DNA of 43,335 nt. Source: a virus. Below are positions 1-43,206 of the stretch, piece after piece (the stretch's first letter is position 1; every line of letters starts with the position of its first letter). The stretch lies in IMG/VR virus record IMGVR_UViG_3300010389_000035, positions 1 through 43,335 of that record. One strand, written 5' to 3'. A program made the translations under genes and the position numbers. The notes under the pieces were generated by a model. The model was not told the origin of the DNA, did no database searches, and saw only the letters and a list, made by a program, of their open reading frames with translations.

Positions 1-423
1 CAAGCGATCCGGGCATCAATGGAGAACCCGTTACTGACGGCGTTTAACAACCTGTCCCCTGCAGTACCAGTGTATTTCGACAACATCACTGCCGTTCCAC
101 CAAATACAACCACCGAGTATGTGCGCGTCAACATCACGTTCGGTCTAACCAACGAACCAACGCTTACCTCTAGCGTGGATAATGCCCGTGGTGCGTTAGT
201 AATCCGCTTGTTCACAGAAAAAGGCCGTGGTCCGGCCCGCAATCAAGAGTTAGTAACAACTGCTGTAAACGTATTAGAGACAATTAATAACACATCCAAA
301 ACTACTACAGGCGTCTTCGTAAAAGTAGGAGAGATAAACGGTCCTACATTTTCAGCTACTGATGAATCCCCGCACTTTGTAGGTCGTATTGATACAGGCT
401 ATGTAGCAACTGTGCTGACTTAA
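1..423 (+). CDS. Tail terminator / tail completion protein (5' truncated)
   Basis: The protein caps the tail tube and joins it to the head-side connector in siphoviruses. The frame is open from base 1. The intact copy at 41850-42281 shows that the true ATG lies nine codons upstream of the internal ATG at 19, so the window starts just inside the gene. The small alpha/beta protein of about 140 residues lies between the HK97 gp10-like neck protein (in the other copy) and the tail tube gene, the usual place for a tail terminator. It differs from the other copy at about 10 of 134 residues, nearly all conservative (I/V/L, D/E, S/T). The assignment rests on position and size rather than on a catalytic motif. 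Confidence 0.75.
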   Translation, partial: QAIRASMENPLLTAFNNLSPAVPVYFDNITAVPPNTTTEYVRVNITFGLTNEPTLTSSVDNARGALVIRLFTEKGRGPARNQELVTTAVNVLETINNTSKTTTGVFVKVGEINGPTFSATDESPHFVGRIDTGYVATVLT

Positions 424-446
424 ATAGTCGCTAACCTGTAAGAAGC

Positions 447-459
447 CGGGCAGTGCCCG
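447..459 (+). promoter_or_regulatory. Conserved leader hairpin before tail tube gene
   Basis: CGGGC-AGT-GCCCG forms a perfect 5-bp stem with a 3-base loop in the 63-base gap between the terminator and tube genes. The whole gap is almost unchanged in the second copy (hairpin at 42305-42317; one indel and one substitution in about 66 bases), while the tube gene behind it has diverged strongly. This suggests an RNA element controlling tube translation, or a homology block used in allele exchange. Confidence 0.5.
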
Positions 460-486
460 CAGAGACCCTTAATTTTTGGCGTACCA

Positions 487-1257
487 ATGGCCACCACCGT
501 TCTGTCCGGCACTTCAGGTGCCCTCTACTACAAGCCCGCTGGCACAACCAGCAGTTTTGCCGAGTCTAACGTCGATACTGGCGCAGACACCATCACTGTT
601 GGAACCTACTTGAATTTAAAAGTAGGTGATCCTGTGCAGTTTAGTGTGATCAACACTCAAACTGGCGGCGCAGGCACAGGCACACTTCCCGCAGGACTCA
701 GCCTTTCGACCACCTACTACGTTATTGCCTACACCGCCAGCACTGGAGTGCTGCAGGTGTCTGCAACCCTGGGTGGCGCGACAGTCACCATCACCGACGA
801 CGGTACAGCTGTTAGCCCCAACGCTTTCCAAGTTGCCTACGCCGAGTTTGCAGTAGTCGGACAGGTCCGTGACTGGAGCTTTGAAATCAACCGTGCTGAA
901 ATCGATGTAACCACCATCGGCCAAACCCCTGGTCAGTACGTTCCATTCCGCAGCTACATCTCCGGTTTCGGCGATGGTACGGGCAGCGCAACGGTCTACA
1001 TGACCGACGAAGACGCTTCCCTTAGCAACCGCATGATCGAGGACGTGCTTCAGCGCAACCAAACTGGTGCTGCGTTCAAGCTTTACACCGACCAAGTGTT
1101 CAGCAGCGGTTCAGTGAACGAAGCCGCAAGCCGTTCCATCGAGTTTGAAGCAGTGCTGACTTCTGCCAGCATGAACGTCACCCCTGACGACGCACAGTCT
1201 GTAAGCGTAAGCTTCCGCCCATCCGGCACCCCAAGCTTCGACTTCAGCCAGACCTGA
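487..1257 (+). CDS. Major tail tube protein (variant 1)
   Basis: 256 residues, the building block of the siphovirus tail tube. It lies between the tail terminator and the tail assembly chaperone, exactly where the tube gene is expected, and ends just before a strong terminator. The central motif around residues 130-170 (WSFEI..AEIDVTTIG, then SGFGDGTGSATVY) resembles the tube-fold signature also found in the proteins at 10337 and 10768. The variant at 42344-43117 is about 70% identical. Variation is spread through the protein, while the N-terminal 20 residues and the C-terminal DDAQSVSV motif are conserved. The ATG at 487 is chosen because the second copy keeps the same start. Confidence 0.8.
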   Translation: MATTVLSGTSGALYYKPAGTTSSFAESNVDTGADTITVGTYLNLKVGDPVQFSVINTQTGGAGTGTLPAGLSLSTTYYVIAYTASTGVLQVSATLGGATVTITDDGTAVSPNAFQVAYAEFAVVGQVRDWSFEINRAEIDVTTIGQTPGQYVPFRSYISGFGDGTGSATVYMTDEDASLSNRMIEDVLQRNQTGAAFKLYTDQVFSSGSVNEAASRSIEFEAVLTSASMNVTPDDAQSVSVSFRPSGTPSFDFSQT

Positions 1258-1284
1258 TAAAGTGCTACTTAAGTAGATACATAG

Positions 1285-1307
1285 CCCCGGTTTTTGCCGG
1301 GGTTTTT
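1285..1307 (+). terminator. Rho-independent terminator after tail tube gene
   Basis: CCCCGG, a 6-base loop, CCGGGG and then TTTTT. The equivalent place in the other copy (43145-43165) also has a terminator, but with a different stem and loop sequence, so the function is kept while the sequence has changed. It probably lets the highly needed tube transcript end before the chaperone and tape measure genes. Confidence 0.85.
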
Positions 1308-1319
1308 ATTGCGCTACGC

Positions 1320-1336
1320 TATAGTTACTTTATAGT
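1320..1336 (+). promoter_or_regulatory. Twin TATAGT candidate promoter before tail chaperone
   Basis: Two TATAGT hexamers (1320-1325 and 1331-1336) follow directly after the terminator T-run and stand 13 bases before the ATG at 1349. Both are kept in the second copy (43178 and 43189). A similar hexamer follows the terminators near 30057 and 40295. No convincing -35 element is visible. Reading it as a promoter is inference. Confidence 0.45.
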
Positions 1337-1348
1337 CAAGTACAAATC

Positions 1349-1881
1349 ATGCCCGCTGGATCTACTCGCGCCATTGACCGGTTGCGTAAAGCAGCAAATC
1401 TCCAGCCAAGCAAGCGCACAGTCGAGCTGTCTGACGGCACCACATTTGAGATGTGGATCAGCCCGCTAACCATGGCTGAACGCGAACGCGCCCAGAAGCA
1501 AGCCAAATCTGACGACGCTGGAGCGTTCGCACTGCAGCTGCTAATTGGCAAAGCACAGGACGAAAGCGGCGCCAAGCTTTTCTCTGCCGGTGAAATCGAT
1601 ATTTTAAAAAACGAAGTCAAAGACAGCGATCTGCAGTCTTTGATGCTGGCCATTCTTGCTGACGAAGACGAAGAGCCAATGGACCCAAAATCCTAGTTGC
1701 GGAACTTCGCAAAGACAACTGGCTCATGCTGCAATTTGGCGTTGCCAAAGAGCTTGGCATGAGCTTGACCGAAGTCCGCACCGCGATGACACCGGAAGAA
1801 TTAATCGGCTGGAGCGCCTATTTCCAGATCCTTAACGAGGACCAAGAAAAGCAAATGGAAAAAGCCCGCCGCCGAAGGTAA
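1349..1881 (+). CDS. Tail assembly chaperone, G/GT pair via -1 frameshift
   Basis: The zero-frame product is 115 residues and stops with TAG at 1694-1696. A slippery heptamer C-CCA-AAA (1684-1690) in the correct X-XXY-YYZ phase lies just before the stop. Slipping by -1 opens a frame from 1690 to the TAA at 1879-1881 and adds 63 residues (starts ILVAELRKDN, contains TPEELIGWSAYFQIL), giving about 177 residues. This is the lambda G/GT arrangement, in which the short form and the frameshifted form chaperone the tape measure during tail assembly. Position between tube and tape measure fits. The second-frame peptide has no good start of its own. Confidence 0.85.
1684..1690 (+). promoter_or_regulatory. 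Programmed -1 frameshift slippery site
   Basis: CCCAAAA read as C-CCA-AAA, two codons before the zero-frame stop. Both tRNAs can re-pair after a -1 shift (CCC, AAA). Confidence 0.8.
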
Positions 1882-1926: not shown

Positions 1927-4900
1927 GTGGCATACAGAGCTGAAATTGAAATCGGTATAAAGGGCGCAGCGCGTTTAAAAGACCTGCAGAACAGGTTACA
2001 AAACCTAGCAACGTTAATAGACAAAAATAATAAAAAGCCTTTATTTGACAGAATTGCCGTACAAAGCGTAAACGAATACTCTGCCGCCTTATCTACAGCC
2101 AAAAGAAATTTAGACCAAGTACAAATTGAACTTAATGACGCTGGAAAAGCGACAGGTGATTATGCAAAAAATATCAGAGAGTTTGTAACAGCACTTGGTG
2201 CGTCTAATCAAGCACAGAAAATAACTAATGACCTTATTGACCAGGAAATAAGTGCTCGCACTCAAGCCACAGCAGCCCTTAAAGCTTATAACGCCGCAGC
2301 GGCTGCCCCCACACAACGGGGGGCTGCCACCACAATGTCAGGCGGCTATTTGCGCGGTGCCTTTAGGGGCGGTTCGCAGTACCCAGGCCCTATAGGGCCA
2401 GGTGCAGCTTCTAGTACAGCTTTATCTTCTGCTTTACCGGCTAGATCAGCACGTACCACCCAGTACCTAAGTCCTATTGGGCCTATTTCTCCTCAAGAGC
2501 GCACTGGACGCGCAGAACAGCTTGCAAGGGAGGCTGCACTAAAAAGCCAAGCTAACCAAAAAGAATTTGCAGCACAAAAAGCATTTCAAACCAAACTGTT
2601 TAATATTGAAAAACAATTTGAAAACAGTCTAATACGACAGCGTGTAGAGGCGGACAACGCCGAGTTTGATAGATTATTAAAACGGCTTGACGTAGAAAAA
2701 AGCAAAAGAAATGAAATAAATACCTTAACAGAAAAATCTAATAAAAAACAACTTGAAGACTTTGATCGACGTTTAAGAGAAACGGGCACTCTGCGGGGCC
2801 AGACCAGCCCGATTGGCGGAGCAGTAGGCATCCCAGGCAGTCCTGCCGCTAAACAGCGCACAGCCCGAAATAAAAAATTACAGGGTGCCGCAAGCAACGC
2901 AATCATCGGTGGTGCGTTCCCGCTGCTTTTCGGCCAAGGAGTCGGTGCCTCAGTAGGCGGTGCTGCTGGCGGCGCGTTAGGCGGACTTGCAGGAGGTCAA
3001 TTTGGCTTTGGACTGTCGCTAGTAGGCACTGCGGTTGGAACGGCAGTTGATACCTTAATTGCTAAAGCCGGAGACCTTGGCAAAGCTTTAAACCCGCTAA
3101 CTGCAGACATTGGTGCTTTAGCAGATGCCGCCGGACTCGCTGGTACAGAGAACGGAAAGCTAATTAAATCGCTGGAATCCTTTGTTGGGTCTGAAAAAGC
3201 TTTACAGCTGGCGTCTCAACAGCTAGCTGTAATTGTGGGCGAAGACGGTGTGCAGGCTTTAAAGGAGTATGGAGACGCAAACACTAACTTGTCAAATCAG
3301 CTTAGTAAAGCTTTCACAGATTTATCTGCATCTATTGCACCGTTTTTAAGCCAAATTACAGGGGCAATTGCACAGAGAGTTGAAACTACACGACTTGTAA
3401 AACGTGGGGTTAATGAATTTAGTGCTGACCCAGCTATAAAGAAAGCTCAAGACGAATTTTTACGACGTAAGATTAGCGAATTTGAGCTTGAGCAAAAAAT
3501 AGCTGATGTTGTGCGACAAAAAGAAGCAGCTTTGCAAAAAGCTGCAGATTCTCAACTACAGGCTACATCAGGTAGCCGTATTGGCCTTCAAATTGCTGAA
3601 CAAGAGTTTATTATTGAGCAAGGAAGAGGCAATCTTTTAGATGCAAGAGTACAAAAAAGTGAAAAGGAAATAATACTTTTAAAAGCCTCAGAAGAAGCAC
3701 AAGCTATTATTAGCCAAGAGGACAAAAAACAGCTAACATCTGCTCAAGCACAGCTTAAATTCGAAGAATTAAATGTAAAAACTACTACTTTAAAATTACA
3801 ACTAGAAAACGCTATAACTAAAGCTAAAGAAGATCAAATAAAGCAGCTAGAACGCGAAAACCAAGCTGCAAAACGTGCGGCAGCCGCAGAAGCAAAAAGA
3901 CTTCAGCAAGAAATGGAAGCACGGAACAGAGGTGTTACTTCGTCCCAAATAGGAAGTATGCAATCTTTGATTGCAGGCAGTAGAGCGGGATTACAAAGCA
4001 CCCGTGTATTTGAAGGAGAAAAAGCATTCCTAGACGAAAGCGAGAAAGCTTTGGAATACGAATTTAGACTCAAAACCCGTATATTAGATATTCAGTACAA
4101 GCAGCGAGCTTCACAAGCCAAATCTCAGAAAGAAGCAGAACATTTGTTTAACACGTATAACACACAATACGACACTATTGAACGGATATATTTTACTCAG
4201 TTACAACAAGTACGACAGCAAAAAGAGCAGCTTAGGGTACAAAAAGAAATTAACGCTTTGCAGCAAGCAGAAGAGACTTCCGATATCACGCGAGACTTTA
4301 CGCGCAATATTGCGGACGTGGAACGCAGGATTGCCTCGCCATTTGGAGGCGGCGATTCAGACATGTTAAACCTTAGAATCGAGCAACTTCGTCGAACAGA
4401 AGACATATACAGAGACATAGACACTCAGGTAAGTATTTTAAACAAACAATTAGAAGCAGACCCCAGTAATGAAATTATTGCGGACAACATAAAAGGTCTA
4501 GAAGAACGTAGACAAAAACTTGAGGCGCTTTTACCGGTTTTAGACCAAGTAGAGCAGGCGGAATTACGCCAGAACCAGTTAATGGAGAAGTACGGCTTTA
4601 TTGCAGACGAAGCCGCTACTGCAATGTCATCTGCTGTGCAGTCCATTGTTACGGGCACTGGTTCGGTCCAGGAAGCCTTTAGCGACATGTTCGCCAATAT
4701 CGGTAAAGCCTTTATTGATATGGCGACTCAGATGATTGCCAAGGCGTTAATCATGAAGGCGATAGGAATACTTACCAGCGCCTTTGGCGGTGGTGGTGGT
4801 GGTATTGGCTTTAACCCCAGCGCCCCAAGCATTACTGGAAATAGCATCGGCGATTTTGGCGGCGGCACTGCTTTTGCCGGTGCATTCGCAGAAGGCGGTT

Positions 4901-5253
4901 ACGTCACCGGCCCAACTAACGCTGTAGTCGGAGAAGGTGGCGAACCTGAGTACATCATCCCTGAATCCAAGATGCGTGAAAGCATGAGCCGTTATTCCAG
5001 GGGTTCACGCGGTAACTCTGTTATCCCCGCAAACGGTGGAGGCGGTGACACATCTGGCGGTGGAACGGCGACACTGGCACCAATTGACGTTCGCTATACC
5101 GTGGAACGCATCAACTCGGTTGATTACGTTACTGCTGATCAGTTCCAAGCCGGAATGAGGGAAGCAGCCAGCAGCGGTGCAAGGCAAGGCGAACAACGTG
5201 CTTTGTCTACGCTGAGGCAGAACACGACGCAGCGTAGGAGGATTGGAATCTGA
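1927..5253 (+). CDS. Tail tape measure protein
   Basis: 1108 residues, the longest tail-shaft gene, directly after the chaperone pair. This protein sets tail length and is ejected with the DNA. Long helical, charged coiled-coil stretches lie at about residues 200-300 and 500-900. A Gly/Ala-rich hydrophobic segment lies near 320-380. The C-terminal part has an amphipathic segment (around 900-960), poly-Gly linkers and the motif GGYVTGPTNAVVGEGGEPEY, typical of lambda H-like tape measure C-termini. The start is GTG at 1927; no strong Shine-Dalgarno is visible, so translational coupling to the chaperone is likely. It overlaps the next gene's ATG by one base (TGATG). Confidence 0.93.
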   Translation: MAYRAEIEIGIKGAARLKDLQNRLQNLATLIDKNNKKPLFDRIAVQSVNEYSAALSTAKRNLDQVQIELNDAGKATGDYAKNIREFVTALGASNQAQKITNDLIDQEISARTQATAALKAYNAAAAAPTQRGAATTMSGGYLRGAFRGGSQYPGPIGPGAASSTALSSALPARSARTTQYLSPIGPISPQERTGRAEQLAREAALKSQANQKEFAAQKAFQTKLFNIEKQFENSLIRQRVEADNAEFDRLLKRLDVEKSKRNEINTLTEKSNKKQLEDFDRRLRETGTLRGQTSPIGGAVGIPGSPAAKQRTARNKKLQGAASNAIIGGAFPLLFGQGVGASVGGAAGGALGGLAGGQFGFGLSLVGTAVGTAVDTLIAKAGDLGKALNPLTADIGALADAAGLAGTENGKLIKSLESFVGSEKALQLASQQLAVIVGEDGVQALKEYGDANTNLSNQLSKAFTDLSASIAPFLSQITGAIAQRVETTRLVKRGVNEFSADPAIKKAQDEFLRRKISEFELEQKIADVVRQKEAALQKAADSQLQATSGSRIGLQIAEQEFIIEQGRGNLLDARVQKSEKEIILLKASEEAQAIISQEDKKQLTSAQAQLKFEELNVKTTTLKLQLENAITKAKEDQIKQLERENQAAKRAAAAEAKRLQQEMEARNRGVTSSQIGSMQSLIAGSRAGLQSTRVFEGEKAFLDESEKALEYEFRLKTRILDIQYKQRASQAKSQKEAEHLFNTYNTQYDTIERIYFTQLQQVRQQKEQLRVQKEINALQQAEETSDITRDFTRNIADVERRIASPFGGGDSDMLNLRIEQLRRTEDIYRDIDTQVSILNKQLEADPSNEIIADNIKGLEERRQKLEALLPVLDQVEQAELRQNQLMEKYGFIADEAATAMSSAVQSIVTGTGSVQEAFSDMFANIGKAFIDMATQMIAKALIMKAIGILTSAFGGGGGGIGFNPSAPSITGNSIGDFGGGTAFAGAFAEGGYVTGPTNAVVGEGGEPEYIIPESKMRESMSRYSRGSRGNSVIPANGGGGDTSGGGTATLAPIDVRYTVERINSVDYVTADQFQAGMREAASSGARQGEQRALSTLRQNTTQRRRIGI

Positions 5254-9948: not shown

Positions 9949-10337
9949 TGGCATTTCCTACTATTGCGCCGACATCAAGGTCTTTTGATTATGGCGACTG
10001 GCCTGTAAAGAAATTCAATTCTCAAAACGGGGCGGAAGTCAGAATCCTCTATGGAGACAAGAGGGTCAACCACAAGCTTTCGCTTACTTACGAAAACATT
10101 ACTGACGCTCAGGCCGAACAGTTTGCGCAGCATTATTACGACCAGAAAGGCACTTATCAGACTTTTGCCTTTGGCACTGCCATTTCAACGATTGGTCAAG
10201 GCTGGGAAGGCTCTTCAGACTTTTTCGATGCTGGAACGGCAGTTCAATGGCGATATGCAGAACCTGTCTCGATCACTCAAGTTCGACCGGGCATCAGTAG
10301 CGTTACAGTGAGCTTTATTGCTGTTGGAGTGAGCTGA
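9948..10337 (+). CDS. Minor tail protein, function unknown
   Basis: 129 residues, beta-rich, starting at the ATG that overlaps the stop of the tail-tip gene. Its opening (FDYGDWPVKKFNSQNGAEVR) and the later GTYQTFAF resemble small lambda M/L-type tail-tip subunits. It is coupled by a TGATG overlap to the tube-like gene at 10337. No enzyme motif is seen. Confidence 0.5.
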   Translation: MAFPTIAPTSRSFDYGDWPVKKFNSQNGAEVRILYGDKRVNHKLSLTYENITDAQAEQFAQHYYDQKGTYQTFAFGTAISTIGQGWEGSSDFFDAGTAVQWRYAEPVSITQVRPGISSVTVSFIAVGVS

Positions 10338-10768
10338 TGGCCAAGGTTTACACCGGCAGAGATGGCGCTTTACAGATAGCTGGCACGACTGTGGCCAAGG
10401 TCGTTAGCTTTGCGTTCCAGAGTGACTTGGAGACGTTAGAGACCACTACGTTGAGCGACAATATCCGCAGCTATGCCCCTGGCGTTGTCGGCTATTCAGG
10501 AAGCGCGTCTTTGCTCTATTACAAAGAGGACTCAGGCTCAATTAACACGACTGACCTCCTCAGCAAGCTGGTCAAAACCGGAACAGCTGGCGTTAGCTCT
10601 ACAGACACGGTTGAGCTTACGTTTCGATGGATCGATGGAACGGACAACAATGACATCAAGATGACCGCATACGTCACAAGTGCAAGCATGGGCGCTGCAA
10701 CAGCTGAACTTGCCCGAGCAGAGATTTCTTTTGTTGGTACGGGCGCGTTGTCAACCGCGACAATCTGA
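10337..10768 (+). CDS. Tail-tube-like protein A
   Basis: 143 residues. The segment LETLETTTLSDNIRSYAPGV followed by GYSGSASLLYY lines up with the tube protein motif (AEIDVTTIG...YVPFRSYISGFGDGTGSATVY) and with the protein at 10768. It is probably a tube-fold subunit in the distal tail, tail tip or fibre collar, arisen by duplication of the tube gene. The start overlaps the previous stop (TGATG). Confidence 0.55.
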   Translation: MAKVYTGRDGALQIAGTTVAKVVSFAFQSDLETLETTTLSDNIRSYAPGVVGYSGSASLLYYKEDSGSINTTDLLSKLVKTGTAGVSSTDTVELTFRWIDGTDNNDIKMTAYVTSASMGAATAELARAEISFVGTGALSTATI

Positions 10769-11637
10769 TGACCGTCTATTTAGGGACATTTGGGGAAGTT
10801 GAACTGCAAAGGCAGTTTGATGGTGGTGAGTTATCTTCTGTTATTAATACAAGTGACGTGAACGTTTCTAAGAAACGTTTTAGCTTTGATTTTGAGCATG
10901 GCCAGCTGATAACTGGCGATCAACTGCAAATTAAAAGCACAGACGGAAGCGCCTTAGATTTTATCGATAGCTACACGGATGACAGCATTACAAGGTTTAT
11001 TCATGTTGACGAGCTAGATGGCGTAAGGCTTTACACGAGTTTTGCTAACGCAGTCAATGGAGGCACTGCGAACGCAGTCACGCTTGCCGTTCCAAGCACT
11101 AACATCCCAATAATTGTTGCCGTACAAAACAGCACAGGCCGATTGCTGGCTCAAGTTAGTAGTTTTGAGCTTAATACTGAACGCGAAACCGTTGACACAA
11201 CAACGCTGTCAGATGAATTTAGGAGCCGAATTAGTACGTTGATGTCTGGCTCTGGTCAGATGACTTGTTTTTGGGAATACGCTGGCAACACTGTAAACGA
11301 GCTACCGCATTATTTGCTGGAACTGGCCTTAAGAACCCGCGTTGGCAGTCAATTCAAGGCAAAATTTTACATAAAAACAAATAACTACAACCCTGTTGGA
11401 ATTTCTAACACGGCTGACGATGATATTTGGTACGAACTGACCGGCGTGCTCACAGCTTGTGCTGTTCAGTTTTCACCTTCAGAAGCAGTCCAAATCACTG
11501 CTAATTTTATTACGACAGGAGCAATTCAGATCAGGATGAAAACTGATCCAATTAATGCCGCCTTGCAGGAAAACTCAGATCACGTACTTTTAGACCAAGA
11601 TGCTGCCGCTAAACTGCTCTTAGAGACCGACCAGTAA
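10768..11637 (+). CDS. Tail-tube-like protein B (enlarged)
   Basis: 289 residues. The middle part carries SFELNTERETVDTTTLSDEF followed by RSRISTLMSGSGQMTCFWEY, the same pattern as in the proteins at 487 and 10337, so it contains a tube-like domain with an added N-terminal region. It directly follows protein A with a one-base overlap. It is probably a structural subunit near the tail tip or fibre junction. Confidence 0.55.
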   Translation: MTVYLGTFGEVELQRQFDGGELSSVINTSDVNVSKKRFSFDFEHGQLITGDQLQIKSTDGSALDFIDSYTDDSITRFIHVDELDGVRLYTSFANAVNGGTANAVTLAVPSTNIPIIVAVQNSTGRLLAQVSSFELNTERETVDTTTLSDEFRSRISTLMSGSGQMTCFWEYAGNTVNELPHYLLELALRTRVGSQFKAKFYIKTNNYNPVGISNTADDDIWYELTGVLTACAVQFSPSEAVQITANFITTGAIQIRMKTDPINAALQENSDHVLLDQDAAAKLLLETDQ

Positions 11638-11657: not shown

Positions 11658-14090
11658 ATGGCTGACCTAAAGATTAGTGAGCTTTCGGCCCTTACCGGAG
11701 CAAACCTAGCTGCGGCTGATGAGCTGGCAATTGTTGACAACAGCGCATCTGAAACCAAAAAAATCACAGTCAGCGACCTGATTGACTCAGGCGTTGATCT
11801 GATTTCTGCCGGCGGAATACCTGGGGCCAAGATTTTATTTGGATCCGCAGAGATTGCAGGATCTGCTCTTGCAAATAATGCAGTCACAGCAACTCAACTG
11901 GCTGACGACGCTGTTACTGCTGCCAAGATTGCTGATGAAGCAACCGTTGACCTTGTCACAACGCTGCCGGGGTCTGGTGCGTTTACCGGACAGATCGCTT
12001 TAGACACTGACGATAATAAGATTTACATCTGGGACGGTTCTGCTTGGCAGAGCGTTAAGGGCGCTGGTTCGGTCAACACAATTGTTGGCAGCACCTCTGG
12101 GCTGGTCAATATCAACATCAGCACGAGCGGTGATCAGGTCACGATCACGCCAACGCTGGATAACACGACATCAGCAGCGCATTTCCTCGGTGGGCCTACG
12201 GGTGCCGGTGGAGCAGTTGCTTATAGGGCTATTGCTGGCACGGATTTACCTGTTGCGACGACATCGACCAAGGGCGGTGTTGTCGTCAATGGCAATGGCC
12301 TGGTAATGAGTGGAAATGAGATCCACGTTGACAACACCGTCACAGCAAACACAACTGAATTTCAGCTAACCCAATATGACGCCAACGGTTTAGTCACTAG
12401 CGGTCGTTTAGTTACAGCCTCAGATATGCCTGAAGCGGCTGCATCTACAAGAGGCGCTGTCTTTCCTGGTTCAGGTTTAACTGTTGCGTCTGGCGGTGAG
12501 CTGAATCACACCAATTCGATTACGCCTGGAACCTTTACCAAGGTCACAGTTGATGCTCAAGGGCATGTAAGTTCGGCCACAAACATTGCAGCGGCTGACG
12601 TTCCAGAGCTGGATGCAAGCAAGACAACAACAGGCGCTTTCCCTGCTGCCCGCATTCAGAACAGTTCGATTGATGGTTCAAAACTTGCTGATAGCTCTGT
12701 AACCAAGTTCGGTGGTGCGGGAGCAACTGACAACATTGTCACCTTCCCAACGGCTGACTTTAAGGGTCAATTCTTTTACGACGAGAAAAACGAAGATCTT
12801 TACGTCCATACGGGTAACTCATTTGTTCCAATCACGGTTATTAGCGGCAACCTGATTCTTGCTGGAATCTATGACGCAAGTACCAACCTGCTTGAAAGCG
12901 TAACAACTGCTGGTTCTGCTGCTGGCTTTACGGCAGGCAGTGCGTTACCAGCCCCTGCGGTCACCAACCTGAACTATTACGTTGTCGTCAGCATTAGCGG
13001 CACTGGTTCTGGCGCGGCACCTGGCGTGAGTTTGGCTCCGCCCGACATGCTCGTGAGTCTTGGCACGGGAACAACGTTCAGCTTGGTGGACGTTTCTAAC
13101 GCTATCGCTGGACAAACCGCCAGTAACATTTCAGTCACACCTGCGGGAAACATTGCCGCAACTGATGTCCAGGCTGCGCTCCAAGAGCTTGACACGGAAA
13201 AGGTTGGATCTGCTAGCCCAACGTTTACGGGCAACGTCACCATCGACACGAATGGAACGATCGTCTTTGAGGGCAGTGCGGCTGATGAGTATGAGACGAC
13301 TCTGACGGTTGTCAATCCAAACGCTGACCGGACGATCACACTGCCGAATGTAACTGGAACGGTTGTCACGACTGGTGACACAGGAAGCATCACTAGCGCA
13401 ATGATTGCGGATGGTGCAATCCTTAACGCTGACATCAACGCTTCCGCTGCTATTGCAGTCAGCAAGCTTGGCTTTGGTGCAGCGGCTCACCAGTTGGTTC
13501 AAACCAACTCATCAGGCAATGGAGTTGAGTTCACAAGCAATGTTGATGTGCCTGGAACGTTAGATGTGACTGGCGTTGCAACGTTCGACAGTACTTCAAC
13601 TTTTGCAGGAATCGCGACGTTTAATGCAAACATCGTGATGGAGGGCACGTCTGTTGACGCTAATGAGCTGACGTTGACCTGTAACCCAACATCTGATGTG
13701 ACGGTTACGTTGCCTGACGCTACGACGACAATTGCTGGCCTAGCAGTTGCTCAGAGCTTTACGAAGGCACAGCGTGGAGCGGTTACTGCGCTGACTGATG
13801 CGGCAACGATCGCGGTAGACCTAAGCTTGTCGAATAATTTCAGCGTCCAGCTCGGTGGTAATCGGACACTAGGCGATCCAACAAACGTGACTGCTGGTCA
13901 GTCTGGTGTGATCGTGGTCACGCAGGATGGAACGGGAAGCAGAACGCTTGCTTATGGCGGGACGAAGTATAAGTTTGCTGGAGGGACCGCGCCAGTTTTA
14001 ACGACCACGGGAGGTGCTGTTGATGTTTTGGCTTATTATTGCGAAAGTGCTACGCGCATTACAGTTACTTCATTGCTGAACGTCTCATGA
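11658..14090 (+). CDS. Tail fibre protein
   Basis: 810 residues, low in Cys and rich in Thr/Ala/Gly/Asp. It opens with MADLKISELSALTGANLAA, a start common in cyanophage fibres. Repeated beta segments include LNHTNSITPGTFTKVTVDAQGHV and TITLPNVTGTVVTTGDTGSI, as in trimeric fibre shafts. A good ribosome site (GAGG at about 11643) precedes the ATG. It overlaps the next gene by ATGA. It is likely a receptor-binding or structural side fibre. Confidence 0.75.
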   Translation: MADLKISELSALTGANLAAADELAIVDNSASETKKITVSDLIDSGVDLISAGGIPGAKILFGSAEIAGSALANNAVTATQLADDAVTAAKIADEATVDLVTTLPGSGAFTGQIALDTDDNKIYIWDGSAWQSVKGAGSVNTIVGSTSGLVNINISTSGDQVTITPTLDNTTSAAHFLGGPTGAGGAVAYRAIAGTDLPVATTSTKGGVVVNGNGLVMSGNEIHVDNTVTANTTEFQLTQYDANGLVTSGRLVTASDMPEAAASTRGAVFPGSGLTVASGGELNHTNSITPGTFTKVTVDAQGHVSSATNIAAADVPELDASKTTTGAFPAARIQNSSIDGSKLADSSVTKFGGAGATDNIVTFPTADFKGQFFYDEKNEDLYVHTGNSFVPITVISGNLILAGIYDASTNLLESVTTAGSAAGFTAGSALPAPAVTNLNYYVVVSISGTGSGAAPGVSLAPPDMLVSLGTGTTFSLVDVSNAIAGQTASNISVTPAGNIAATDVQAALQELDTEKVGSASPTFTGNVTIDTNGTIVFEGSAADEYETTLTVVNPNADRTITLPNVTGTVVTTGDTGSITSAMIADGAILNADINASAAIAVSKLGFGAAAHQLVQTNSSGNGVEFTSNVDVPGTLDVTGVATFDSTSTFAGIATFNANIVMEGTSVDANELTLTCNPTSDVTVTLPDATTTIAGLAVAQSFTKAQRGAVTALTDAATIAVDLSLSNNFSVQLGGNRTLGDPTNVTAGQSGVIVVTQDGTGSRTLAYGGTKYKFAGGTAPVLTTTGGAVDVLAYYCESATRITVTSLLNVS

Positions 14091-16939
14091 GTATTCCTGG
14101 AAGCGCGTCACCGCTATTTCTTGCATCGACAGCAGCAGCAGCAGGAGGTTACGATATACCCAGAAGCCTTAGATTCAATTCAGGGGATAGTGCTTATCTG
14201 AATAGAACTCCAAGCTCTGCGGGTAATCGCAGAACATTTACATTTTCGTTTTGGGCAAAACTAGGGGATCTAGCTGCCCAAAAAAACATTATTACTGCTT
14301 CTTCAACTCCTGGCGCAAGTAACGCATCTTCACCTAGAACAGAATTTCGTTTTACTGGTAACGGAGGCATATTGTTTGCTACTAACATCACTGGTTCTTC
14401 TTGGAACAGTTTAAGTACAACTGCAGTATTTAGAGACCCGTCCGCTTGGTATCACGTTGTTGTTGCTGTAGATACTACGCAAGCCACGGAATCTAATCGA
14501 GTTAAAATTTACGTTAATGGTGTTCAAGAGTTATGGAGCGGATCCGTTGCCGGTCAAAACGACGAAACACCTTACAACAATACTTATGGTCACGCTATTG
14601 GTGCTTACGCAAATAACTATAATGATTTCTTTGATGGTTATTTAGCTGAATTTATATCAATCGACGGTCAAGCCTTAGCTCCATCTGACTTCGGAGAATA
14701 CGATTCAAATTCAGTCTGGCAACCGAAGGAATATGCTGGAACGTATGGCACCAACGGTTTCCACCTTGATTTCTCGGATACAAGTTCTGACTCGGCGCTC
14801 GGGACGGACAGCAGCGGCCAAGGCAATGACTGGTCGGTTAATAATTTAGTTGCGGCAGGCAGTGCCTGGTATAACAGCCAGACGTGGAGTGACGTTCTTT
14901 ATACGGCTGGTACACCTTCTGACGCACCAACAGTTACAGCAAAAAGTTTTCTTTCGGGCTATCCGGCTACGTTACCATTTAACGGCAATACCAATAGAGC
15001 GGCAAACGAAACATACGCAGCAGAGTCTCTCAAGACAATTGTTTTTAGACCTGGCACTGCACTAACTGGTGTAACTAAGCTTGAAATTTTTACTAACGGT
15101 ACTAACACAACAGATGCTGGATACAACAGTGCCACTTCTGTGATTACCAGCAACACAAATGTTGGCTGGCAAACCCTTTACGACGGCACTGCTATTACTC
15201 TTAACTATGTTTGGGCTTATGAAAATAATGGTCAAGGTGCATTTAGCGGATTGAAAATTAATGGTCTTATGCTTGTGGACGCTGGTGTTTCCGATCCACT
15301 TGCGGCTGGTATCGACGCCCTACGTGATTCACCAGTCAACGGTGACTCTGCAAATGACACGGGCGCAGGCGGTGAAATAACGGGCAATTATGCGACGTTG
15401 AATCCGCTTTTAGGGGCGCAGACGTTGTCGAATGGCAACTTAGACGTTACTGGTGGCAGTAGCTGGCAAAGATCAGTTAGCACTATTGCAATGTCGAGCG
15501 GCAAATGGTATTGGGAATATGAAATCACTGCCAGTAATGAGCATATTGTTGGTGTTGGTCCTCTTGACATGCAGATGGGCGGCAACTTAGGTGCCGGAAG
15601 CCCGCCTGGGTCTGGTTATGGAACTGAACTTGGACAAGTTAACGGGACAGGCGCTAACGGCTCTTGGAGTAATACGGGTGGATCGACAACAGGTGATCTG
15701 ATTGGCGTGGCTTTTGATGCTGACGCGGGCAATATGTATATCTACAAAAACGGAACTGCTCTTAATAGTGGGACTGCTTCTCACACTGGATTAACAAACG
15801 GTCCTTATTACGCAGTATTTAGCTTAAATGGATCGTCAAGATCTGGGTCTGTCAACTTCGGCCAACGTAGTTGGGCCTATGCCGCACCTACTAATTTTAA
15901 AGCGTTATGCACTGCGAACCTAAGTGATCCTTTAATTGCAGATGGCTCGACGGCGTTTGATGCAAAGGCTTATGCCGGAACAGGCAGTGCTTTAACGATC
16001 ACTGGAATGAATCTAAGCCCTGACCTTATTTGGATCAAAGATCGGGGGCCTACTCCAGTTTCTGGACATAAGCTAGAAGATGCTGTTAGAGGTGCTGGCA
16101 AATATCTTTCCTCAAACACCACCGGTGCTGAGGTCTCGCCAAGCAATGGTGTTACTAGTTTCAATTCTGATGGATTTACGCTAGGAACCGACAATGCTTA
16201 CAACGACAGCGGGCATACGTTTATAGCCTGGACCTGGGACGCCGGATCTTCCACGGTAACTAATACTGACGGCAGCATATCTTCACAGGTACGTGCCAAC
16301 CCAAGTGTTGGGTTCTCGATTGTTAGTTTTACCGCTCAAGCAAGTGGCAGTGGAACCATTGGTCATGGTTTAGGAGTTACGCCAGAATTTGTAATAGTCA
16401 AATCTCGTGATGCTGCTTATAGCTGGATCGTGTGGCATAAATCCCTAACTTCTGCAGCTTACAGTCTGATTTTGAATACGAATGCAGCACAAAGCACTAG
16501 TATCGACGCGTGGAATAACACGCTACCAACGTCTTCGGTTTTTTCGCTTGGAGCCGATTATGCAGGTGCTAGCAACTCAGTCGCCTACTGCTTCGCACCT
16601 GTCGAAGGGTATAGCGCATTTGGTTCGTACACCGGCAACGGTTCTGCTACAGATGGTCCGTTCGTATATACCGGGTTTAAAATTGCATTTTTAATGATCA
16701 AAAATATCAGTGCCGCTTCAAATTGGATTATTTTAGATAACGCCAGAGATCCTATTAATGATGCCTCAAAACGGCTATCTCCTAATTTAAGCAATGCAGA
16801 AGATCCATCAAGTACTCTGGATTTTACGTCAACAGGGTTTAAAATAAGGAGAAATGGACAAACAGAGAACATTAATGGAAATACCTACGTCTATATCGCA
16901 TTTGCTTCGCATCCATTCAAAACGGCACGCGCCCGTTAA
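14087..16939 (+). CDS. LamG/SPRY-like carbohydrate-binding tail protein
   Basis: About 950 residues from the ATG overlapping the fibre stop; the frame is open from 14039 but the coupled ATG is the better start. Residues about 15-220 (RSLRFNSGDSAYLNRTP, FTFSFWAKLG, YHVVVAVDTTQ, VKIYVNGVQE) fit a concanavalin A/LamG lectin fold. The middle (SSGKWYWEYEITAS, DLIGVAFDADAGNMYIYKNG) resembles a SPRY-like domain. The C-terminal third has repeats of the type PDLIWIKDR / PEFVIVKSR / AFLMIKN. It probably binds cell surface polysaccharide. Confidence 0.75.
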   Translation: MSIPGSASPLFLASTAAAAGGYDIPRSLRFNSGDSAYLNRTPSSAGNRRTFTFSFWAKLGDLAAQKNIITASSTPGASNASSPRTEFRFTGNGGILFATNITGSSWNSLSTTAVFRDPSAWYHVVVAVDTTQATESNRVKIYVNGVQELWSGSVAGQNDETPYNNTYGHAIGAYANNYNDFFDGYLAEFISIDGQALAPSDFGEYDSNSVWQPKEYAGTYGTNGFHLDFSDTSSDSALGTDSSGQGNDWSVNNLVAAGSAWYNSQTWSDVLYTAGTPSDAPTVTAKSFLSGYPATLPFNGNTNRAANETYAAESLKTIVFRPGTALTGVTKLEIFTNGTNTTDAGYNSATSVITSNTNVGWQTLYDGTAITLNYVWAYENNGQGAFSGLKINGLMLVDAGVSDPLAAGIDALRDSPVNGDSANDTGAGGEITGNYATLNPLLGAQTLSNGNLDVTGGSSWQRSVSTIAMSSGKWYWEYEITASNEHIVGVGPLDMQMGGNLGAGSPPGSGYGTELGQVNGTGANGSWSNTGGSTTGDLIGVAFDADAGNMYIYKNGTALNSGTASHTGLTNGPYYAVFSLNGSSRSGSVNFGQRSWAYAAPTNFKALCTANLSDPLIADGSTAFDAKAYAGTGSALTITGMNLSPDLIWIKDRGPTPVSGHKLEDAVRGAGKYLSSNTTGAEVSPSNGVTSFNSDGFTLGTDNAYNDSGHTFIAWTWDAGSSTVTNTDGSISSQVRANPSVGFSIVSFTAQASGSGTIGHGLGVTPEFVIVKSRDAAYSWIVWHKSLTSAAYSLILNTNAAQSTSIDAWNNTLPTSSVFSLGADYAGASNSVAYCFAPVEGYSAFGSYTGNGSATDGPFVYTGFKIAFLMIKNISAASNWIILDNARDPINDASKRLSPNLSNAEDPSSTLDFTSTGFKIRRNGQTENINGNTYVYIAFASHPFKTARAR

Positions 16940-19478: not shown

Positions 19479-19715
19479 TCAGGTAACCCCAGAGTCTTGC
19501 TCATACTCTGGTCCGTTAGACGAATTGCGGTATATACGTTCTAACTGGTTTGCCACTGGATTACTATCACCGATGGGCATTCCGTCAAATGGGTCATTAG
19601 CGATAAAAAGCAACGGCCCATCCATTTCTTTAACGGCGAGCATACCAATGCGAGGACTACGCACCAGTATGTCAAGAGCCATACGCTCGACCCAGTTCAA
19701 AAAGATAACTTTCAT
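19479..19715 (-). CDS. Small protein of 78 residues, unknown function
   Basis: Last gene of the leftward block. The start is the ATG overlapping the thyX stop (ATGA); an upstream in-frame start inside thyX is less likely. The first part (MKVIFLNWVERMALDILV...RIGMLAVKEMDGPLLFIAND) has alternating hydrophobic strands. I do not recognise the family. Coupling to thyX suggests a shared role in nucleotide supply or host takeover. Confidence 0.6.
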   Translation of the reverse strand: MKVIFLNWVERMALDILVRSPRIGMLAVKEMDGPLLFIANDPFDGMPIGDSNPVANQLERIYRNSSNGPEYEQDSGVT

Positions 19716-20350
19716 AGGTTCAGTGTAGGAAAAACGGCCTGGTACACCGTTGGAAAGCACTGCTTAAACACGGCTGCACATTTAAAAGCGACCTGCCGGT
19801 GTTCGAGCTGTGTATCGTTATCAGCCCGCAACTGGATGTAATGCACCCAAGACCTTAGTGTCCCCTGCATGTAAAGGGTAGTAGGAGTACAGAGTGGCAG
19901 GATGCGTCTAGCCGTCTCCTTGGCAACGCCCCGTTCCAGTAGGGAGTCATAAAACAAAAAGGCATCAGCAATGATGCGACCAGCACCCGCTTGGAAATTT
20001 TCTTGATGCTGTGGGTGCAGATCACTGATGCTGTTCTGTCGATTTTTAAAATCTTGCCGCCGAAAATAGGGTATCTCAGCCGGTTGTGTCTTGCTGTATC
20101 GGGTAGAAAATTCCTGGAACGAAAAAGACCGATGCCGCAGTATCTGCGCAGCAATGTCACGTTCAGTATCGATTTGAACGCACATATTTGCCATCTCAAA
20201 TGGCGACCAGTGCTTGTGCTTAACAAGGTATTTAAGCAGCCCTGGTCCGGTTTCCCAATTGTCTTCATTGCTGGGATTACTAACACGTGCCATGCGCACG
20301 ATCAGTTTTTCAGCGTCTGGAGTTGCCCAGACTAATTCAACATTGCTCAT
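19712..20350 (-). CDS. thyX: Flavin-dependent thymidylate synthase ThyX
   Basis: 212 residues. It makes dTMP from dUMP using FAD, NADPH and methylene-tetrahydrofolate. The ThyX signature RHRSFSFQEFSTRY (residues 72-85, R-H-R-x7-S) is intact. HWSPFEM (47-53) and LRADNDTQLEHRQVA near residue 175 are further family motifs for FAD and dUMP binding. Length is normal. It is coupled on both sides by ATGA overlaps, to a zinc-ribbon protein upstream and the 78-residue protein downstream. The role is to boost thymidine supply for phage DNA synthesis. Confidence 0.95.
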   Translation of the reverse strand: MSNVELVWATPDAEKLIVRMARVSNPSNEDNWETGPGLLKYLVKHKHWSPFEMANMCVQIDTERDIAAQILRHRSFSFQEFSTRYSKTQPAEIPYFRRQDFKNRQNSISDLHPQHQENFQAGAGRIIADAFLFYDSLLERGVAKETARRILPLCTPTTLYMQGTLRSWVHYIQLRADNDTQLEHRQVAFKCAAVFKQCFPTVYQAVFPTLNL

Positions 20351-20571
20351 GAATAAAGCGCAGAGATCAGACGTTGCACCACATCTTTTTTAATGTGGTA
20401 GTGCTTGTCGCAGTGGATGTGTGGTTTATCCACAGAAATTTCTACTGAATATGAAAGTGCAGAGCACACCGTACATTTCCAAGTTCGTGTCGTCGCTACT
20501 TCGTGTGACCTACGAGTACCTATGGTTTTTACGATGCCCCTACCTGAAGCCCCACAACTAGAACATTCCAT
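20347..20571 (-). CDS. Zinc-ribbon protein of 74 residues
   Basis: The start ATG overlaps the sigma factor stop (TAATG) and the end overlaps the thyX start (ATGA). The N-terminus MECSSCGASGRG and the later TWKCTVCSAL give two CxxC pairs that can bind zinc. His-rich residues follow (PHIHCDKHYHIKK). Position between a sigma factor and thyX suggests a transcription-linked or nucleic-acid-binding accessory. The exact function is unknown. Confidence 0.65.
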   Translation of the reverse strand: MECSSCGASGRGIVKTIGTRRSHEVATTRTWKCTVCSALSYSVEISVDKPHIHCDKHYHIKKDVVQRLISALYS

Positions 20572-21428
20572 TACAGCGGCCCACAAGTACCTAGTTTTGC
20601 AAGCACATTAAGTTTTCTTAAGGCCTTATGGTATCTTTGCCTTACACGCTCTCTAGATATACCCAAGTCTTTTGAAATTTTTATGTAGGTCTGTGCTTCG
20701 CCGCCATCAAAAGCAAAAACACGTTCAACGATGGTGCGATCTACAGGGCTTAACGACATCAACAACCTGTCCACCGTATCACCGCAAAAGAGGTTGTCAA
20801 GTTTGTCCATGGGATGCGCCCCATCACTAATAACCTCAATCAACGAATGTTCAGAATCCAACCCAGTTCTAGGTTTATCTAAGCTAAGGCAATCCTCACT
20901 GCGTTCCAGGTACTCCCGCAACCGCTTAGGGGATGTAGCACAGTATTCTGCGCTTTCTTCTAAGGTAGGCGGCCTACCGTGCGACAGCTCAAACTGGGGT
21001 GCCCACTGACGCAGTTTTAGTAATATTTCCCCGGCATGGGACGGAATGCGAATCATACGGTCGTGGTAACTCAAATAGCGGCTAATGGCCTGCCTGATCC
21101 ACCAATAGACATACGTGGACAAAGCGTAACCACGCTCAGGATCAAACTTTTTAATGCCGTGAGCAAGCCCGATGTTTCCTTCTTGCACAATGTCAAACAT
21201 TTCTGTGCGCCTGGAACGTAATGTGTAACGTTTTGCAATAGAAACCACAAGCCTTAGGTTGCAGTTAATGAGCTTTTGGTAGGCGCGCTTACCTACCTTT
21301 ATTTGTTTTTCGGTCGGGTTTTCAGCTGTAACCCAAACCTGAATCTGTCGCGCCAGCAGTATTTCTTGCTCTTTGTTCAAGAGCGGATACCGGACAATGT
21401 CCTTCAGGTATTCACTAAAACCGTCCAT
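20571..21428 (-). CDS. Cyanobacterial-type group 2 RNA polymerase sigma-70 factor
   Basis: 285 residues. Region 1.2 (FSEYLKDIVRYPLLNKEQEI, near residue 5), region 2 (NLRLVVSIAKRY, MFDIVQEGNIGLAHGIKKFD, ALSTYVYWWIRQAISR; about 57-120), region 3 and region 4 with its helix-turn-helix (ISKDLGISRERVRQRYHKAL; about 250-270) are all present. There is no large region 1.1, as in group 2/3 sigma factors. The similarity to host SigA-type factors is far higher than for T4 gp55-type factors. It probably directs host RNA polymerase to phage promoters, perhaps the TATAGT junction sites. It lies in the leftward early block with overlap to both neighbours. Confidence 0.95.
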   Translation of the reverse strand: MDGFSEYLKDIVRYPLLNKEQEILLARQIQVWVTAENPTEKQIKVGKRAYQKLINCNLRLVVSIAKRYTLRSRRTEMFDIVQEGNIGLAHGIKKFDPERGYALSTYVYWWIRQAISRYLSYHDRMIRIPSHAGEILLKLRQWAPQFELSHGRPPTLEESAEYCATSPKRLREYLERSEDCLSLDKPRTGLDSEHSLIEVISDGAHPMDKLDNLFCGDTVDRLLMSLSPVDRTIVERVFAFDGGEAQTYIKISKDLGISRERVRQRYHKALRKLNVLAKLGTCGPL

Positions 21429-24681: not shown

Positions 24682-24918
24682 TTAAAGAGGAAAGGTTTCG
24701 TAAGAGGTTTGCAAGAGGTTTTTGATTATTACCTCTAGTTCTGCAACCCTATCAGTGGAGTCAAGGTCGCAGATAATTGGGACTTCAGCTGTAAACCATT
24801 TGTAACCACAGCTGGGGCATTTACGGCCCCGCACAATGCTGCTTTCAAAACGGGGTTTAGTTTGAGTAACCCACCGATCACCTTTTTGCGGTGATCGGTT
24901 GCAGTCTGGGCAATTCAT
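24682..24918 (-). CDS. Zinc-ribbon protein, NrdR-N-terminus-like
   Basis: 78 residues. MNCPDCNRSPQKGDRW followed by SSIVRGRKCPSCGYKWFTAE gives two CxxC pairs with a basic run between them, closely matching the zinc ribbon of NrdR (CPxC...RRRxCxxCxxRFTTxE). The ATP-cone domain of NrdR is missing; a short helix (DSTDRVAELEVIIKNLLQ) follows instead. It might bind DNA or regulate nucleotide genes. The stop of the upstream DUF3310 gene overlaps its start. Confidence 0.6.
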   Translation of the reverse strand: MNCPDCNRSPQKGDRWVTQTKPRFESSIVRGRKCPSCGYKWFTAEVPIICDLDSTDRVAELEVIIKNLLQTSYETFPL

Positions 24919-40864: not shown

Positions 40865-41242
40865 ATGTCAAAAATCGACGATACCTTTTCAGCGATTCCA
40901 GCCCAGATTCTTAATGACTGGGGCCAAGACATCACGTACATCAAAACGGTAACACCCCGTGTATACGAGCCAAGCACGGGCGAAATATATGGTGCTGACG
41001 TTGAGACAACAGTGAAAGGAATAATTACCCGTTTAACGCCCCAGGAATCGCAGGGACTGTACCAAACCACCGACGTAAAGATTTTGATTGGTACGGCAGA
41101 GCTTGGCGATTATTACCCAACAGAAGCCGACCGCGTGCAGTATCCGCAGGCAGGTGAAACCCGCGAAGCCAAGATCATTAGCATTTTGACCTATCGTGGT
41201 GACAACCCGGTGTACCACACCCTGATCGTGAGGCCACAGTAA
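40865..41242 (+). CDS. Head closure (stopper) protein
   Basis: 125 residues, beta-rich (LNDWGQDITYIKTVTPRVYE, VKGIITRLTPQESQGLYQTT). Size and order after the adaptor match the SPP1 gp16/HK97 gp7-type stopper that closes the portal channel. It starts one base after the adaptor stop and ends by overlap with the next ATG. Confidence 0.65.
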   Translation: MSKIDDTFSAIPAQILNDWGQDITYIKTVTPRVYEPSTGEIYGADVETTVKGIITRLTPQESQGLYQTTDVKILIGTAELGDYYPTEADRVQYPQAGETREAKIISILTYRGDNPVYHTLIVRPQ

Positions 41243-41853
41243 TGGCTAAAGGTTTTGGGATAGGCAAACAACTAGACCGCGACGTTTCATCGGCTCTTTT
41301 AATCGGTGCCATTAAAGCTGCGGAGCGCACAGTAGACGAGTTACAAGAGGAAGGCCCTAGTTGGACAGGCCGTTTCTCTAATTCTTGGCAAATTCAAGGC
41401 CCGCAAGGACAGCAAGTTAAGGGTGACGGTGGTCCAGGAGATGCCCGACCACTCAGATTTCGTGAAGGTCCGTTTACTGGACCGCAAGCAGCAGCAACGC
41501 TTTTAAGGACCAAAGTAACTACGGATAAGGTTGTATTTACTATTTCAAACTTTTCGGATCACGCAGCGGAAGCTATTGATGCCGTGGAACATGACAAAAC
41601 TTACTATCCAAAAGGTTGGGCAATATCTCCAGATGGCCCACAAACCTCACAAGGTCAAGCCAACTTTGACCCGGTTAATGGTGGACGTAAAGACAGTAGT
41701 CGTAGAGGGGATACAGGCGGCGGTGATCCAAAAAGCATCTCAAGTCGTACAGCCCCCTTGGACTGGTTTGCAACTTTTGCAGAAGGAGGCCGCCTAGACA
41801 AAGCAATTAAAATAGAAATGGACAAAGCCTTGGCAAAAGCGTTTAGAAAATGA
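41242..41853 (+). CDS. Neck protein, HK97 gp10-like
   Basis: 203 residues. RTVDELQEEGPSWTGRFSNS and a later VVFTISNFSDHAAEAIDAVE fit HK97 gp10-like proteins, which link stopper and tail terminator. Order and coupling (overlaps on both sides) agree. A Ser/Gly/Arg-rich insert near residue 150 is unusual. Confidence 0.65.
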   Translation: MAKGFGIGKQLDRDVSSALLIGAIKAAERTVDELQEEGPSWTGRFSNSWQIQGPQGQQVKGDGGPGDARPLRFREGPFTGPQAAATLLRTKVTTDKVVFTISNFSDHAAEAIDAVEHDKTYYPKGWAISPDGPQTSQGQANFDPVNGGRKDSSRRGDTGGGDPKSISSRTAPLDWFATFAEGGRLDKAIKIEMDKALAKAFRK

Positions 41854-42281
41854 ACTACCAAGCGATCCGGGCATCAATGGAGAACCCGTTACTGACGGCG
41901 TTTAACAACCTTGTGCCAGCAGTTCCTGTTTATTTCGACAACATCACTGCCGTACCACCAAACACAACCACCGAGTATGTGCGCGTCAACATCACATTTG
42001 GCATAACCAACGAACCAACGCTGACCTCTAGCGTAGACAATGCCCGTGGTGCGCTTATTATCCGTGTATTCACGGAGAAAGGCCGTGGCCCGGCCCGAAA
42101 CCAAGAATTGGTAACGACTGCCGTAAACGTATTAGAGACTATTAACGAAACGTCTAAAACTACTACAGGTGTATTCGTAAAATTAGGTGAAATAAATGGA
42201 CCAAGTTTTTCAGCTACGGAAGATTCACCGCACTTTGTAGGCCGCATTGACACAGGTTATATAGCAACGGTGCTGACTTAA
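41850..42281 (+). CDS. Tail terminator / tail completion protein (complete copy)
   Basis: 143 residues, ATG overlapping the previous stop (ATGA). This is the complete version of the truncated gene at window position 1. It confirms the start and shows nine extra N-terminal residues (MNYQAIRAS). It differs from the first copy at about 10 of 134 residues, with the TTTEYVRVNITFG and KGRGPARNQELVTTAVNVLE cores unchanged. Confidence 0.78.
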   Translation: MNYQAIRASMENPLLTAFNNLVPAVPVYFDNITAVPPNTTTEYVRVNITFGITNEPTLTSSVDNARGALIIRVFTEKGRGPARNQELVTTAVNVLETINETSKTTTGVFVKLGEINGPSFSATEDSPHFVGRIDTGYIATVLT

Positions 42282-42343
42282 ATAGTCGCTAACCTGTAAG
42301 AAGCCGGGCAGTGCCCGCAGAGACCCTTATTTTTGGCGTAGCA

Positions 42344-43117
42344 ATGGCCACCACCGTTCTGTCCGGCACTTCAGGTGCTCTTTATTACAAACCGGCTGGC
42401 ACGTCCAGCACGTTTGCTCCTGCGGGAGTGAACATCGCAACTGACACGATTACCGTACCCACTTATTTGGGGTATAGGGTAGGCGATCCAGTGCAATTCA
42501 GCCTAGTCAACACCACTACAAACGGCGCAGGCACTGGCACGCTGCCTGCTGGTTTGTCCACAGGAACCACCTACTACGTCATCAGCTACACAGCATCCAC
42601 TGGTGCGATGCAGGTATCGGCCACTGAGGGCGGATCCGCTGTGGATCTAACCGATGTTGGAACAGCAACGTCCCCCAATAAATTCCAGGTTGCCTACGAC
42701 GCTTTTGTTGTAGTCGGTCAGGTGCGGGAATGGTCTTTTGAAATGACCCGCGCTGAGATTGATGTAACCACCATCGGTCAAGGCAACCAGCAATACGTTC
42801 CATTCAGGACATTTATTGCTGGCTTTGGCGAAGGCTCAGGATCTGCGACGTTCTATTTTACGAACGAAGACGCAGATATGGGCAACCGCATTATCGAAGA
42901 CGTTCTACAGCGCCAACAAACAGGTGCAGCCTTCAAGCTGTATATCGACCGTGTGTTTACGGGCGGTGTTGTTGACGACACGCTGAGCCGCTCGGTCGCC
43001 TTCGACGCAGTCCTTACTTCAGCCAACTTGGCCGTCAACCCTGATGACGCCCAATCTGTGTCGGTAAACTTCCGTCCAGCAGTGGCACCTGTGTTTGACT
43101 TCAGCGTCACCGCATAA
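42344..43117 (+). CDS. Major tail tube protein (variant 2)
   Basis: 257 residues from the ATG at 42344, the same start as in copy 1; a GTG at 42311 in frame is part of the conserved leader. About 70% identical to the tube protein at 487-1257, with conserved ends and core motifs (TRAEIDVTTIGQ, GFGEGSGSATFYF, IEDVLQRQQTGAAFKLY). Substitutions are dense in residues 21-60 and 205-220, which could be surface loops. Confidence 0.8.
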   Translation: MATTVLSGTSGALYYKPAGTSSTFAPAGVNIATDTITVPTYLGYRVGDPVQFSLVNTTTNGAGTGTLPAGLSTGTTYYVISYTASTGAMQVSATEGGSAVDLTDVGTATSPNKFQVAYDAFVVVGQVREWSFEMTRAEIDVTTIGQGNQQYVPFRTFIAGFGEGSGSATFYFTNEDADMGNRIIEDVLQRQQTGAAFKLYIDRVFTGGVVDDTLSRSVAFDAVLTSANLAVNPDDAQSVSVNFRPAVAPVFDFSVTA

Positions 43118-43144
43118 ATTACTGCAACTGGATTAAACAATGAA

Positions 43145-43165
43145 CCCCGGTCTTCGGGGTTTTTT
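43145..43165 (+). terminator. Terminator after tube gene, copy 2
   Basis: CCCCG-GTCTT-CGGGG and TTTTTT. Its loop and stem differ from the terminator at 1285, while the flanking chaperone leader is nearly identical. Confidence 0.8.
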
Positions 43166-43206
43166 AATGCGCTACGCTATAGTTAATTTATAGTCAAGTA
43201 CAAATC

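Follow-up and report, generated by a model that had tools for sequence, protein, structure and literature searches.

Wild populations of marine phages contain near-identical regions beside highly variable genes, described as metaviromic islands (PMC3909814). In the parts of that study drawn on here, the islands hold mostly host-recognition genes and list three tape measure proteins, and the tail tube is not among the island genes examined. Discussion of variation within phage populations usually centres on receptor-binding proteins; the present locus concerns an internal structural gene, the tail tube, in a 43,335-bp IMG/VR contig of a marine virus, the whole of which was analysed and is referred to below as the window. 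Since such mixing of conserved with highly variable stretches is established for marine phage populations (PMC3909814), the general kind of pattern was already known, at least from what that study describes, and the new part is the existence of discrete tube alleles with gene-level borders. Unlike the islands as described there, the window's locus comprises a core tube gene with few discrete alleles and sharp borders. Our literature search on allelic major tail proteins found nothing matching. The bacterial defence DSR2 (a Bacillus system) senses the monomeric tail tube protein (PMC10981675, PMC11087589), which shows that a tube protein can trigger immunity, although any bearing on this virus and its host would be by analogy only.

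Two cyanophages resemble the locus in gene content and order. KBS-S-2A, a siphovirus of Synechococcus WH7803, has the same order of Hc1, Ne1, terminator, tube, chaperone and tape measure with one tube copy, and its tube is 71.7% identical to allele A of the window; unlike the window, it lacks the conserved leader ahead of the tube, and its portal is only 32% identical. Cyanophage S-2L has a syntenic tail module, its tube homologue (33%) is annotated as the major tail protein, and it gave the best portal match covering most of the query (37%); it is remote, and no leader element was seen in it. With these cyanophage kin as the sole basis, the host is probably a cyanobacterium. The genome collection returned one 52% relative, in a contig of a gammaproteobacterial MAG, which is uninformative on the host.

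The window virus is a siphovirus of the Caudoviricetes with an HK97-like head-neck-tail module. Terminase, portal, capsid, adaptor, head closure, Ne1, terminator, tube, chaperone and tape measure were all recognised, from PHROG and Pfam matches or, for Ne1 and tube, from synteny and fold; no sheath gene was present among the annotated genes, the annotation covering part of the open reading frames. At the right end the order is portal, major capsid, Ad1, Hc1, Ne1, tail terminator, tube and the first 43 chaperone codons, and at the left end it is a terminator that lacks the initial 9 bases, followed by tube, the whole chaperone and tape measure. On the plus strand, as are all features of this locus, the right end carries Ne1, an HK97 gp10-like tail-completion gene (41242–41853; Pfam HK97-gp10_like match slightly under the cut-off), the complete terminator of haplotype B, which forms the conserved 5′ flank (41850–42281; PHROG 179, E 4e-11; Pfam PF13554 above the cut-off), tube allele B of 257 aa (42344–43117) and the first 43 codons of the haplotype B chaperone (43207–43335). 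The left end carries the truncated terminator of haplotype A (1–423), tube allele A of 256 aa (487–1257), the tail assembly chaperone forming the 3′ flank (1349–1696; PHROG 344 and 20784) and the tape measure gene (1927–5253). A terminator-like stem-loop with a T-run lies 3′ of tube A (1283–1304), found by consensus match only (3 found vs 2.1 expected); its counterpart 3′ of tube B is a palindromic stem-loop followed by a T-run (43143–43161), which the search output placed on the minus strand owing to the palindrome.

The tube assignment draws on a predicted structure and on the S-2L homologue. The AlphaFold2 model (pLDDT 75.9, with low confidence at residues 138–160) has a predicted beta-sandwich fold, and its best PDB match was the T1 tail tube (E 5.8e-5), followed by the R4C and GTA tubes. 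Sequence identity to these three is low (11–18%), and unlike them the window tube has a well-predicted inserted region of about 95 residues (residues ~20–118). At the sequence level, the tube showed no strong match to families, and its profile found nothing meaningful among PDB sequences.

A comparison of the first with the last 4 kb by blastn gave one collinear alignment, with chance ruled out (E = 0), in which positions 1–1477, spanning the partial terminator, tube A and the chaperone start of haplotype A, match 41859–43335, the same locus in haplotype B. Both copies are exactly 1477 bases long, the alignment touches the first and last window bases, and its identity is 1181/1500 columns, or 79%; no further repeat was detected by blastn within the 43,335-bp window. 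The sequence-only reading had described the same segment at both ends at a fixed offset, with tube proteins only about 70% identical, and both points hold, the measured tube identity being 71.1% at the amino acid level. It had also described near-identical flanks. This is correct for the leader and the chaperone start, where exact runs of 60 bp (412–471, leader), 49 bp (1329–1377) and 40 bp (1379–1418) occur, but the terminator part is only about 87–88% identical. The overlap ends exactly, with the first 53 and last 54 bases identical between copies. As only these 53 and 54 exact bases flank a 79% overlap, the ends do not form an exact terminal repeat, and they suggest the signature of an assembly-graph bubble. 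The assembler's k could not be recovered because the internal 60-bp run exceeds the exact ends.

The window's right end stops, and its left end starts, inside one head-to-tail module, which is why a circle of about 41,858 bp is proposed: with one copy removed, the joined ends form one canonical module on a 41,858-bp circle. To examine the junction we used IMG/VR relatives collected by searching with both tubes, the capsid and the chaperone. Several bridge it with high identity on both sides (L003, L004 and others); L004, 98% identical in nucleotides to tube A, runs on one contig from portal through a single tube to T3. Gene order thus closes and relatives span the junction. Contigs of near-complete relatives begin at differing genes, and five of these relatives have exact terminal repeats of 127 or 77 bp. 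The 46,860-bp relative G010 (loci L399 and L400) has a terminal overlap of 1154 bp at 96.6% identity in another tail gene, with an exact run of 127 bp at one end and 83 at the other, and is a second circular genome masked by haplotype differences; a further relative (G002) has an imperfect end overlap of 193 bp (96.9%) in its terminase gene. These overlaps resemble the window's at other genes, so an assembly that closes imperfectly on two variants is a general outcome for this group. Such overlaps can mark two-haplotype circular viral genomes, which exact-repeat tests miss.

The same relatives bear on whether the window instead holds a true tandem duplication, that is, a 43,335-bp circle carrying terminator, tube and chaperone twice, with the copies diverging afterwards. 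The arrangement is geometrically a tandem repeat, and joining 43335 to 1 keeps the reading frame, chaperone codon 43 running into terminator codon 4, as would happen by chance in one case in three. That join, however, would leave only 43 codons of the chaperone, joined to a start-less terminator, and the contig ends would need to coincide exactly with the duplication junction. The sequence-only reading had suggested a search for genomes with two tube genes; none of the 224 relative loci with a tube has a second adjacent one, and the 12 near-complete relatives (40–47 kb) each have one tube at the locus, with weak second matches (25–44% identity) far away elsewhere. Among distinct blocks from close relatives, 37 of 37 have a single tube gene between terminator and chaperone. 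Alleles A and B, moreover, are each met separately as single alleles; because of this, and because B's nearest kin outside the core clade (defined below) belong to another clade, their origin is not a duplication within this virus. We regard a duplication as extremely unlikely.

In a further alternative, a mis-assembly would have fused two different viruses, making the circle fortuitous. The terminator gene, too, is about 12% different between the two haplotypes, but a difference of this size is ordinary in this population, gene order closes perfectly, and the relatives that bridge the junction match with high identity on both sides; this origin is very unlikely. That the overlap sits exactly at both contig ends would also be expected if a linear phage genome carried physical, non-identical terminal repeats. 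Copies passed through concatemers stay identical, however, and relatives' contigs end at other genes, with this locus internal, so that such repeats are hardly credible.

Gene order and the relatives instead point, very probably, to a complete siphovirus genome, closing as a circle of about 41,858 bp, whose old, discrete tube alleles are exchanged between backbones. The contig would have gone beyond the point where it began and finished on another, coexisting tube-locus haplotype, which would be why both ends show one locus with different alleles. This agrees with the earlier proposal of a circularly closing genome of about 41.9 kb in which assembly met two tube variants, for which the gene order, the bridging single-copy relatives and the similar overlaps in relatives all speak. 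By eye, the chaperone-sampled set showed no clear excess of contig ends inside the tube gene. Both alleles are present in independent contigs; A and B were not found together in one sample among the fetched contigs, and their coexistence in the source sample is inferred from the window itself.

We then compared the alleles within a core clade, defined by chaperones at least 88% identical in amino acids. All testable core-clade contigs carry either A (90–100% aa identity to A) or B (96–98% to B), and sampling by chaperone, which is blind to the tube, yielded A in 27 cases, B in 5 and an undetermined class in 1. In 38 terminator–tube–chaperone blocks (31 A and, for B, just 7 distinct full blocks), the fixed A/B differences number 142 and all fall at 42404–43125, between tube codon 21 and 8 bp beyond the stop, an interval that we take as the exchanged cassette. 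The terminator (432 bp) and chaperone (348 bp) contain none, and A and B have 75 and 41 polymorphic sites in common there, respectively. Mean divergence between and within classes was 0.102 and 0.090 in the terminator, 0.334 and 0.073 in the tube, and 0.076 and 0.076 in the chaperone. Third positions differ by 0.56 between A and B in the tube, with the flanks close to within-class values; NG86 dS between A and B is 1.4–1.7 (~1.5) vs 0.06–0.37 within classes, and dN is about 0.25. Forty-nine tube residues are fixed differently, 16 in residues 21–118, 33 in 119–256 and none in 1–20. Label permutation of the fixed differences was trivially zero and carries no weight. Terminator genes are slightly structured by tube class (p 0.003), which means that exchange falls short of complete.

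The trees of tube and backbone conflict. A single A/B change is needed on the tube tree, and 4–5 on the terminator and chaperone trees. In the capsid tree, core A and B viruses form one clade (99), and grouping core B with outer B is rejected (AU test, p 1.3e-6); in the tube tree, core B joins outer B with support of 99.9 and a core A+B clade is rejected (AU test, p 0.014). The alleles thus form trans-species lineages, and from these opposite trees at least one tube lineage must have crossed clade boundaries or predate them. The earlier suggestion that tube alleles are exchanged as cassettes between near-identical flanks is borne out in that differences are confined to the tube and capsid and tube trees disagree, but needs amending in that the flanks are freely shared rather than near-identical overall. 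Its picture of two variants fits the window's ends but is too narrow, since there are at least four tube classes (A, B, C and D; tube C of L237 is 76% identical to A), and Ne1 and the tape measure are exchanged likewise.

Ne1 falls into 5 classes among the relatives, 30–67% apart in amino acids, and the tape measure into at least 13, with long open reading frames of 812–1680 aa, some cut by contig ends. Both A and B occur with Ne1 classes 0 and 1 and with tape-measure N-terminal classes 0, 4, 7 and 9, and no linkage of tube class to either was seen, in small numbers. The window's Ne1 is 99.8% identical to those of L040 (tube A) and L237 (tube C), with 1 mismatch in 609 bp and 370 bp exact, and beside it the Hc1 and terminator flanks are about 72–90% identical; this amounts to a recent single-gene exchange over three tube backgrounds, A, B and C. 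Tail genes thus reassort gene by gene, because Ne1 and the tape measure are multi-allelic and untied to tube class and a 99.8% identical Ne1 occurs on A, B and C. In L159, which has a class D tube (52%), the capsid is 97% identical and the stretch from Hc1 to chaperone is diverged (about 50–75% alike), a pattern that we read as exchange of a larger tail block. The range of about 812 to 1680 aa for the tape measure in close relatives predicts big differences in tail length within one virus population.

Between terminator and tube lies a conserved non-coding leader, GCTAACCTGTAnnnAGCCGGGCnGTGCCCGC, with the hairpin CGGGC-AGT-GCCCG. In the window it occurs only at 430–460, ahead of tube A, and at 42288–42318, ahead of tube B. 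It precedes the tube start by 19–30 nt in all 163 testable distinct instances from the fetched contigs, and of 121 loci sampled by protein, 115 contain the hairpin core. The 5-bp stem and triloop are nearly invariant, so covariation support for the hairpin is minimal, and no Rfam family matches the leader. At the 5′ border of the cassette, the longest exact homology comes from the leader together with the tube's conserved first codons. That the leader acts in tube expression would be a guess. In the leader consensus fold, an invariant GCTA pairs with the region around the start codon (no covariation). Immediately ahead of the tube ATG (about 477–486 and 42334–42343, and in relatives' leaders) the haplotypes vary: some read GGCGTACC and others the reverse complement, GGTACGCC, and either version can form a small TTGG/CCAA hairpin.

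At the level of sequence, these comparisons establish a single locus with two or more alleles, sharp borders, conflicting trees and independent assortment. Mechanistically, few old, discrete tube alleles would move between backbones by homologous recombination during co-infection, crossing over upstream in the conserved leader and first tube codons and downstream in the intergenic region or chaperone start. Ne1 and the tape measure are exchanged independently, and terminator, chaperone and capsid stay common to the population. With gene-level precision, and irrespective of Ne1 and tape measure, a few ancient tube alleles pass between similar genomes. As to cause, neutral mosaicism, in which conserved junctions serve as entry points for diverged genes and selection does not favour alternative tubes, is plausible, if short of probable: mosaicism extends to Ne1, tape measure and T3, which are unlinked to tube class, but, judged informally, few discrete classes recur at appreciable frequency, B is shared between clades, and capsid, terminator and chaperone are not replaced. 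Retention of the alleles by selection on tail proteins, for example for escape from host tube sensors, is a tentative proposal made by analogy. It is doubtful that long-lasting balancing selection keeps tube alleles across phage species, re-dealt gene by gene, with hosts sensing particular tubes and the leader serving as both expression element and recombination arm. The alleles offer a natural set for asking whether tube-sensing host defences drive phage evolution.

Elsewhere in the window, two distal tail proteins (10337–10768 and 10768–11637) resemble tube-domain paralogues, and two relatives (G011 and G013) have weak tube-like matches (25–35% aa) in comparable downstream places. A large tail protein with SPRY and DUF7483 domains (14039–16939) is a candidate receptor-binding protein. 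The replication arm encodes, on the minus strand, a ThyX-type thymidylate synthase (19712–20350), a sigma-70 family factor (20571–21428) and an NrdR-like zinc ribbon (24682–24918).
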